DNA from: Xylanibacter rodentium
GTDB lineage: Bacteria > Bacteroidota > Bacteroidia > Bacteroidales > Bacteroidaceae
Reading direction: 5' to 3'
NCBI RefSeq assembly: GCF_013166575.1
Contig: NZ_JABKKE010000001.1
Span: 124,001 to 188,000 of the forward strand
DNA: 64,000 nucleotides
Shown here: positions 17,754-25,536 of the stretch, one piece after another
Position numbering within the stretch: the stretch's first letter is position 1
Layout of the letters: each line of letters opens with the position of its first letter
Translations under genes and position numbers: made by a program
Notes under the pieces: generated by a model
The model's database searches: none
Seen by the model: the letters and a program-made list of their open reading frames with translations, nothing else
What the model was told of the DNA's origin: nothing

Positions 17754-17947
17754 TTTTTTTGCAACTTTTTTGCATATTCACCTCATTTTTTTCACCCAAC
17801 CGCTTTTCATATCCACTACTGACCTCATTTCCATTTATGCTTGCAAATCGAAAGTATTCCGCGAAAAACGCTCTTCATTCCGCTACAGCCAATTCTCCGA
17901 AATGACGAAACAAATTCTCCGGAGAGCTGCTTTGGGAACGAAAAAGA

Positions 17948-18019
17948 CTGTTTGAATTCTCCGTTTTGTCGGTTTAACATATGTTAATGGGTGCATCGGG
18001 ACAGCCAATTCTCCGTTTT
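17948..18019 (+). repeat. 72-bp inverted repeat, left copy
   Basis: Matches the reverse complement of 19008-19079 at 70 of 72 positions by my hand alignment. It contains two ATTCTCCG sites and the 14-bp palindrome TTAACATATGTTAA. Weaker similarity continues about 20 bp outward. Confidence 0.9.
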
Positions 18020-18263
18020 TTCACGAATAATGTTGCTTTTTATGACGGCAGCACCACACTCGTTGTTTCCCGCAACCAGGTACAGATGCACCGTGGAACA
18101 CACTGCCGGGCTACGACTTTCACGGATAATTCAATGTGTGCCCGTCATGCGTCTGTCGCAACATAAAGTATATGTTTATGTCAAGATAATTGGTACAATC
18201 TCAAAGGCGGAGAATTCGGAGAATTGAAAAACAAGGTATTCGCCATATACGATTCCCGTATGG

Positions 18264-18313
18264 TATATTCCAATCTGTTATATATAATATTATATATAAC
18301 AGATTGGAATATA
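18264..18313. repeat. 50-bp perfect palindrome
   Basis: Positions 18264-18288 are the exact reverse complement of 18289-18313 with no spacer. It is AT-rich in the centre. It lies between the left 72-bp arm and the long inverted repeat. Confidence 0.9.
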
Positions 18314-18334
18314 AAATAAGTAGCTAACAAAATC

Positions 18335-18811
18335 AAACTACATTATCGTCCGGACATAGGATGGATGCGCCCCGGTCGTACTTTTCCACACGGTAGAGTA
18401 TGATAGATGCACCTTGAAAGGCAAAAAGCACACAGCCACCACATTGATCCACATTACGATTCGTAGGATGTGGGCGCCTTGAAAAGGCAGCAAGCGCAGA
18501 GCCCGGGGAAGAGCGAAGCGGCACCCCGGGAACAACATGATGTCCCATTCGCCCTGCAAGGGCAAAAGCGTTAGTTATCAGATATTTATAATTTTCCATC
18601 CCATATATTTTTATGCTTTTGCCCTTGCAGGGCGCGGGGATTCTAACACATGGATTCCCGGGGTGCCGCTTCGCTCTGCTCCGGGCTATGCGCTTGCTGC
18701 CTTTTCAAGGCGCCCACATCCTACGAATCGTAATGTACATCAACGTGGTGGCTGTGTGCTTTTTGCCTTTTCAAGGCGCATCCATCCTATGTCCTGAGGA
18801 TAATGCAGTTT
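18335..18811. repeat. Long palindromic element, copy 1
   Basis: Left arm 18335-18569, right arm 18615-18811, loop 45 nt. Ends carry AAACTACATTATCGTCCG (right end: two or three changes). Arms share blocks GGATGGATGCGCC, AAAAAGCACACAGCCACCAC, AGGATGTGGGCGCCTTGAAA, AGCGAAGCGGCACCCCGGG and GCCCTGCAAGGGCAAAAGC. The left arm has an extra piece of about 40 nt near 18371-18410. Copy 2 is at 25199-25502. Confidence 0.85.
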
Positions 18812-19007
18812 AATTCTGTTGATTAACTTATAAGAATCAGTTATGAACATTGTTTTCGGAGATTCTCCGTTTTCATTTCTCCGAAAGCGAGTATTTTTGT
18901 AATAAAAAAGTATCTGCCATACATCCGTGTCCGCTGTCTTAAGAAAGGCTTGACGTGGTAAACTCAGCTTCATTCTGTAAAAACATTACGCAGTGTGTCC
19001 GACGGAG

Positions 19008-19079
19008 AAAACGGAGAATTGGCTGTCCCGATGTACCCATTAACATATGTTAAACCGGCAAAACGGAGAATTCAAACAG
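19008..19079 (-). repeat. 72-bp inverted repeat, right copy
   Basis: Reverse complement of 17948-18019 with two mismatches. Together the pair bounds a 1132-bp segment. Confidence 0.9.
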
Positions 19080-19206
19080 CCTCTTTCGTCTCCAAAACAC
19101 CCTTCATAGAATCCGTTTCTCCGACTTTTTTGCCCGTTTTTCTCTCCGATGACGGCCGGACACGTTGAGAAGAAGTGCAAAAAAACGTCATCCACTAATA
19201 CTACAT

Positions 19207-19295
19207 TTCACATCCTCAAAGTGCCACTTCACATCCTCAAAGTGCCGTTTTCGCAATGCAAAAGTGGCACTTTCACACCCCAAAAGTGCCACTTT
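19207..19295. promoter_or_regulatory. AAAGTGCC site array upstream of mutA
   Basis: A 19-nt unit ending TCCTCAAAGTGCC occurs at 19207-19225 and 19228-19246 (period 21 bp), followed by two palindromes AAAGTGGCACTTT (19261-19273) and AAAGTGCCACTTT (19283-19295). The array ends 86 nt before the -33 box of mutA. It could bind a regulator of the mutase operon. A non-regulatory intergenic repeat is the alternative. Confidence 0.45.
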
Positions 19296-25003: not shown

Positions 25004-25164
25004 GGGCTCATTACATTTGTTCAGTATATTGTCAATCACGTGCAAATGTACAATAAAATAGTGATATTATACACCGGCAGGATAAAGAAAATTATTTTTC
25101 TTTAGAGGAAAGATAATAATATATTCGGAATAAAGCATCCATATCGCCATCTATATTTACATGA

Positions 25165-25200
25165 GTCGGACAACAGAATTAAGTCGGACAACAGAATTAA
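25165..25200 (+). repeat. Tandem duplication of an 18-bp repeat end
   Basis: GTCGGACAACAGAATTAA occurs twice in direct tandem (25165-25182 and 25183-25200). It forms the outer flank of the palindromic element; the mirrored flank on the right (GATTCTGTTGACTGAC) is single. Confidence 0.8.
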
Positions 25201-25502
25201 ACTACATTATCGTCCGAACATAGAATGAACACGCCCCAACGGGGCAACGAGCACATAGCCCGGGGCAGAGCGTAGCGGCACCCCGGGTATCAAACATCGA
25301 CACTCCGCGCCCTGCAAGGGCAAAAGCATAAAAAACATACAATACATAAACTGTAAACACTTGATAATTAATGCTTTTGCCCTTTCAGGGCGAGTGTGTA
25401 CAATCGTGTTGTTCCCGGGGTGCCGCTTCGCTCTGCCCCGGGCTATGTGCTCATTGCCCCGTTGGGGCGTGTTCATTCTATGTTCGGACGATAATGTAGT
25501 TT
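25199..25502. repeat. Long palindromic element, copy 2
   Basis: Arms 25199-25329 and 25371-25502 with a 41-nt loop. Both ends carry AAACTACATTATCGTCCG, as in copy 1. Shared blocks are GGGGCAACGAGCACATAGCCCGGGG-type, CGGCACCCCGGG and GCCCTGCAAGGGCAAAAGCAT. It is shorter than copy 1 because it lacks the GGATGGATGCGCC-to-GTGGGCGCC segments. No gene lies within 25046-25536. Confidence 0.85.
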
Positions 25503-25536
25503 GATTCTGTTGACTGACTTGGATTTACATATGCCG

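Follow-up and report, generated by a model that had tools for sequence, protein, structure and literature searches.

Long palindromic elements of Xylanibacter rodentium share three-hairpin arms with a Y1 transposase gene

Two long palindromes and the insertion of copy 1

The window, the whole 64,000-nt stretch of Xylanibacter rodentium DNA that we analysed (contig NZ_JABKKE010000001.1, positions 124,001 to 188,000), contains two long palindromes, which a sequence-only reading had placed at 18335-18811 (copy 1) and 25199-25502 (copy 2). We found both at these locations, and their longest ungapped arm pairs were 95% complementary, spanning 116 nt in copy 1 (18417-18532 / 18655-18770) and 107 nt in copy 2 (25181-25287 / 25414-25520). 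The innermost stems enclose a loop of 45 nt in copy 1; in copy 2 this loop has 35 nt. The extent had been set too short: the elements reach 16-20 nt further outward, and the terminal inverted repeat extends outward as AAGTTRGTCAACARAATT. The 18-mer AAACTACATTATCGTCCG, described as common to all ends, was exact at three of them and carried three mismatches at the right end of copy 1. The palindromes and this terminal 18-mer are far beyond chance, the 18-mer occurring four times in the window against 0.03 expected from shuffles.

The features are listed below. Core arms were scored with a covariance model, R1, built from 30 foreign transposase-flanking arms only; hp1, hp2 and hp3 denote the hairpins of an arm.

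18319..18828, no strand: whole inserted element of copy 1, 510 bp; TA on both sides; stretch lacking in five paralogous host-repeat copies (L103-L107)
18319..18352, + strand: left outer terminal inverted repeat of copy 1; matches the AAGTTRGTCAACARAATTAAACTACATTATC family
18794..18828, - strand: right outer terminal inverted repeat of copy 1; inverted match to the left end, with the three mismatches in the inner 18 nt
18475..18570, + strand: core arm of copy 1 with three hairpins; R1 64.0 bits, E 5e-13; DNA fold
18476-18488, 18502-18530 and 18551-18563, + strand: hp1, hp2 and hp3 of this arm
18571..18613, no strand: AT-rich loop of copy 1, placed relative to hp3; equals the position of the transposase gene in locus L030
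18614..18712, - strand: mirrored core arm of copy 1; R1 65.8 bits, E 2e-13
18715..18778, - strand: extra degenerate hairpin block of copy 1; direct repeat D1, 83%; weak R1 match, 17.3 bits, E 0.037
25164..25519, no strand: whole element of copy 2; TG border on both sides; left start at about 25164/25182
25232..25328, + strand: core arm of copy 2 with three hairpins, all three in the DNA fold; R1 64.9 bits, E 3e-13
25329..25371, no strand: AT-rich loop of copy 2
25372..25469, - strand: mirrored core arm of copy 2; R1 68.7 bits, E 4e-14; DNA fold z -3.1

The modular blocks noticed earlier were present, and their nature proved to be that of self-complementary hairpins. As had been observed, one copy lacks blocks that the other has: each arm of copy 1 has one additional hairpin block, partly duplicated (18715-18778, mirrored near 18408-18474), which fits the proposed growth by block duplication. 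Smaller copies elsewhere in the genome (65-200 bp; L070-L073 and L079) point to loss of inner modules. At its left end, copy 2 has the 18-nt terminal repeat twice in exact tandem (25164-25181 and 25182-25199).

Copy 1 lies in a non-coding host repeat of about 1.1 kb (window 17886-19130), of which the genome holds six copies (L102-L107) at 74-80% identity. The ends of this host repeat are inverted over 95 nt (17928-18022 / 19005-19099), an AT palindrome occupies its centre (18259-18318), and it contains TTAACATATGTTAA motifs. Short direct repeats (TTTCACATCCTCAAAGTGCCACTT) were also seen at 19206-19294, upstream of methylmalonyl-CoA mutase-like genes. We compared the occupied site with the empty ones, and the results showed that five paralogues lack 18319-18828 while both sides align. 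Copy 1 is demonstrably an insertion of a 510 bp composite, outer shell included, and the shell has thus moved with the core at least once. Relative to the empty sites, 13 nt of host sequence (TTTGATTACAATA) were missing at copy 1, and TA stood at both borders. We saw no transposition in which the core moved by itself; the only proven insertion has the outer shell in it. A cross-species empty site was not found for copy 2, where the flanking genes aligned at 66-76% and the intergenic stretch did not align.

A genome-wide family of small hairpins

The two palindromes noted in the window belong to a family spread over the 3.53-Mb genome, in which blastn with copy 2 as query gave 116 matches and R1 found 138 arms. 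At least 44 two-armed copies were read individually, and about 50 copies were read to define ends and anatomy. Several arms lay at contig ends (C2, C11, C65, C66 and others), indicating that the repeats probably broke the assembly and that the copy numbers are minimum values. The family copies were mostly intergenic (21 of 24 loci tested).

From outside to inside, a full copy consists of an outer terminal repeat, a variable spacer, hairpin 1, hairpin 2, hairpin 3, a loop and the mirror image of this series. Hairpin 1 reads GCCCCAACGGGGC or GCCTTGAAAAGGC and is followed by about 13 nt ending in ATAG and then by hairpin 2 (CCCGGGGCAGAGCGNAGCGGCACCCCGGG). After a linker of about 20 nt comes hairpin 3 (GCCCTGCAAGGGC or GCCCTGAAAGGGC), followed by AAAAGC, and the AT-rich loop between the arms measures 43-50 nt across the family. 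Most copies in this genome sit in an outer inverted-repeat shell (AAGTTRGTCAACARAATTAAACTAC...), usually flanked by TA. Its outward end pattern, TAAGTTRGTCAACARAATTAAACTACATTATC, matched 133 times in the genome, and the reversed-pattern control gave 0 matches. Beside many copies (L004, L006, L008, L009, L011, L013, L016, L019, L020 and L078) a module, TATTTGACTATGATTTCAGAAATGARCGACAAGTTTTGGACACCCTACC, recurs, which suggests further mosaic growth. Four loci (L007, L010, L017 and L019) share a common outside flank (AATACAGAATATGACATTGTTGCAATTGAGTAATT...), which may be a hot spot or a further repeat.

We then examined which structure is kept in the arms. Of 18 hairpin pairs compared over the 30 foreign arms, 11 were changed on both sides (29 cells) and none on one side only. 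In alignment A1, hp1 and hp3 had been picked for perfect 5-bp stems, so that the pairing percentage is partly built in and only the variety of pairs counts as evidence there; alignment A3, not picked for perfect stems but fitted to the model, was 94% paired. Among 89 distinct arms of the genome, in a fitted alignment, hp1 kept its pairing in every cell counted, and two positions showed 26 and 31 double changes. The two arms of one copy differed in hp1 in 18 of 44 copies, and both stems were perfect in 15 of these, indicating that complementarity between the long arms has been sacrificed and the small hairpins individually maintained. The small hairpins, and not a large cruciform, appear from this covariation to be the conserved structure. 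Copies with equal hp1 in both arms were also commoner than expected (26 against 9.9; 5000 permutations never rose above 19), so common ancestry or partial homogenisation also links the arms. The single-strand DNA folding energies of the four window arms were unexceptional (z -1.1, 0.2, -1.1 and -3.1), and the structural claim therefore rests on covariation.

The foot of hp2 was ATAG in 69 and ACAG in 15 of the 89 genome arms, the AG was invariant in A1, and the foot was exactly GTAG in a planctomycete locus (L066). Judged from these alignments, the invariant AG that immediately precedes hairpin 2 on its 5' side is the best candidate for a guide motif.

A Y1 transposase gene inside the same arms

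A search for a Y1 transposase in genomes carrying the palindromes had been proposed. We searched this genome for the Y1 transposase family PF01797 and found an intact gene on contig C8 (L030:1402-1857). It occupies the loop position and is enclosed by mirrored three-hairpin arms, the only intact Y1 gene in the genome so placed. The product, P0001, is a Y1 (HUH) transposase of 151 aa with the motifs DHVH, WQ and YIERQREHH. Its catalytic residues are H55, H57 and Y115 together with Q119, H122 and H123, and these six as well as W95 and Q96 were invariant in 19 homologues. Conserved C-terminal helices span 119-125, 128-138 and 145-148. The AlphaFold model of P0001 (pLDDT 87.8) gave structural matches at E 6e-8 to 3e-7 with the hairpin-bound TnpA proteins of ISDra2 and IS608, and at E 3e-4 with 4er8, a REP-associated transposase. 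Against the NCBIfam IS200 model P0001 scored 48 bits, below the cut-off of 55. By its signature (Y---Q--HH, DH[IV]H, WQ and a C-terminal domain), P0001 is assigned to TnpA-Y1 subclass 1.2.

Two further Y1-type genes or fragments occur in the genome, at L031:1369-1812 (147 aa) and L032:1507-1581. One of them matched NCBIfam REP_Tyr_transpos below cut-off, and the L031 gene, which lies between genes of a 2-oxoacid oxidoreductase, was called REP_Tyr_transpos-like. On inspection, three-hairpin arms were absent at both loci.

To place the arms in a wider context, we collected 37 loci from named records that encode relatives of P0001. Their hosts were mostly Prevotella, Segatella, Hoylesella, Leyella and other Bacteroidales, with one Prolixibacteraceae, one Planctomyces and one Bacillus fragment. 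Inverted arms lay within 250 nt of the gene in 29 of 36 loci tested, our own gene included, and in 0 of 117 control placements drawn in the same loci. R1 found all four window arms (E 4e-14 to 5e-13), and the two arms of the genome's own gene ranked first and fourth among its 138 matches. These sequence matches showed that the window arms are homologous to gene-flanking arms of other species. In several genomes R1 matches lay directly beside the gene; arms were seen at Segatella copri loci, and the gene occurs in named genomes of Segatella copri, Leyella stercorea and Hoylesella timonensis. G193, a one-contig genome, has at least 72 arms and two gene copies. The hp2 loop is about 15 nt in gene-flanking and gene-less arms of X. 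rodentium and 3 nt in both kinds of arm of G193. The planctomycete genome of L066 yielded just the two arms beside its gene and no gene-less copies.

The own gene's arms have GCCCTGAAAGGGC as hp1 and so differ from most copies, whose hp1 is GCCCCAACGGGGC or GCCTTGAAAAGGC; judged by this sequence, they are not the immediate parents of most copies. The loop showed weak kinship with the gene ends (p 0.01-0.5, mostly 0.05-0.2), which gives little support to the idea that it is an exact remnant of the gene.

Across genomes, the gene and arm families co-occur at both the order and the genus level. Among 149 genomes of the order, 76 have a homologous Y1 gene and 44 of these have arms, against 9 of the 73 lacking the gene (p 4e-9); for the best genes (E<=1e-34) the figures were 20 of 22 against 33 of 127. 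Among 60 genomes of the genus, arms were found in 9 of 9 with a close gene and in 11 of 51 without (p 1e-5). Both p values treat genomes as independent, with shared ancestry uncorrected. Arm-bearing genomes in which no gene (in the genus, no close gene) was detected numbered 9 of 53 in the order and 11 of 20 in the genus, which may reflect loss, incomplete assemblies or another driver.

P0001 resembles the described members of subclass 1.2 in length (about 150 aa), DHVH, WQ, Y---Q--HH, extra C-terminal helices, low copy number and occurrence in Bacteroidetes. That subclass is characterised by Y---Q--HH, an extra C-terminal domain, a length of about 148 aa and presence in Bacteroidetes and Cyanobacteria, and was described as generally without terminal secondary structures, with 'no' in the REP column and IS properties unshared (Quentin 2018, PMC6006769). 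In contrast, the genes studied here are flanked by conserved three-hairpin arms. We read the inverted hairpin arms at 29 of 36 genes as a correction to the published description of the subclass, not to the membership of P0001 in it. We found no open-access paper with GCCCTGAAAGGGC in its text, nor one linking subclass 1.2 to hairpin arms.

Origin and spread of the elements

The sequence-only reading had offered mobilisation by a REP-type transposase as one option. This option is strongly supported, since the same hairpin train encloses a Y1 gene here and in many other genomes; the enzyme class is 1.2 and not that of a class 2 RAYT. We consider both palindromes likely to be REPIN-like elements that lack a gene and are non-autonomous; they would belong to a subclass 1.2 Y1 transposase, with whose help in trans they have probably spread. 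Among the closest parallels is the REPtron with its RAYT/TnpAREP and REPINs (Nunvar 2010, PMC2817692; Bertels and Rainey 2011, PMC3116915; Corneloup 2021, PMC8266576). The two systems share inverted palindromic repeats around a Y1 gene, repeats that are also dispersed in the genome as many gene-less intergenic copies, co-occurrence of gene and repeats, and a low gene number. They differ in that the class 2 motif Y---NP is replaced here by Y---Q--HH, and one GT[AG]G hairpin of 20-40 nt per unit by three hairpins per arm with a foot that in this genome is usually ATAG or ACAG. In TIRtrons, too, long inverted repeats enclose a Y1 gene, and some of these repeats are self-complementary and recur in the genome (Di Nocera 2013, PMC3733652, a paper in which Prevotella is absent), but the TIRYTs listed there fall into subclasses 2.1, 2.2 and 2.5, and none is reported for 1.2 (Quentin 2018, PMC6006769). 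The IS200/IS605 elements IS608 and ISDra2 provide the nearest solved structures and have single-strand hairpin ends, although IS200 ends are not long inverted repeats.

IS608, ISDra2 and REP-associated enzymes recognise hairpins in single-stranded DNA and cut and join through a tyrosine. The gene-bearing form of the family consists of a three-hairpin arm, the Y1/HUH gene and a mirrored three-hairpin arm. By analogy, the enzyme would act in trans on single-stranded arms, as on the lagging-strand template. Its targets would be the small hairpins and among them probably hp2, whose AG foot is invariant (in this genome usually as ATAG). The tyrosine would nick beside the hairpins and the element would be joined elsewhere, as in IS200/IS605 TnpA and REP-associated TnpA. 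Gene-less forms may arise by gene loss between the arms. Against this scheme, the two arms are symmetrical, unlike classic IS200 ends, and the ends of the outer shell are not obviously explained by a Y1 enzyme.

The shell is central to an alternative that we regard as possible, though clearly less probable, in which a TA-targeting DDE transposase (IS630/Tc1-like) recognises the outer repeats and the composite is its MITE, with the hairpin core as an internal passenger picked up once and multiplied with it. The terminal repeats of the shell occur at 133-135 places in the genome, nearly always preceded by T (TA|AGT...), the borders of the proven insertion are these repeats with TA on both sides, TG flanks copy 2 at either end, and two loci (L071 and L072) have outer repeats with little or no core. 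However, no gene-bearing element with AAGTTRGTCAACA ends was seen among the loci read, and 15 of 44 copies had no outer repeat on one or both sides that loose matching could detect. The outer repeat occurred in none of 59 further genomes of the genus, several of which are rich in the core, and the core stands without a shell around the Y1 gene here and in G193, G190, G207 and G176, indicating that the shell of this species is a private addition around the core. The TA on both sides of copy 1, where 13 nt of target are missing relative to the empty sites, may be a target duplication made by the shell.

It is improbable, in our view, that the arms are kept for a cellular role of the sort proposed for REP/BIME (transcription termination, mRNA stability, or nucleoid or gyrase sites) and that the gene has been domesticated for their maintenance. 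The intergenic position of the copies agrees with such a role, as does the gene itself, which is low-copy and has none or only a few distant relatives in viral contigs, phages and plasmids, like housekeeping-type RAYTs; the patchy distribution within one genus (20 of 60 genomes) and the private shells argue against an essential role. The long complementary arms had also been taken as a possible long structured RNA. We regard this as very improbable, since the region has no Rfam match and the arm-to-arm pairing is broken at hp1 in the 18 copies with differing arms, whereas the local hairpins are mostly intact.

As a tentative extension of the REPIN-like reading, for which we would claim less than even chances, subclass 1.2 enzymes may drive widespread three-hairpin elements in Bacteroidales, with a single gene-bearing planctomycete relative, and the elements of this genome may be two-layer units whose TA-bounded shell is moved by another enzyme. 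The REPIN-like reading would give a DNA partner, in gut genera, to a transposase subclass described as having none. It would also explain a large number of the palindromes interspersed in such genomes, and some of the breaks between their contigs. Two questions would become directly testable: which hairpin the enzyme recognises, and whether arms with several hairpins stand midway between IS200 ends and single REP hairpins.
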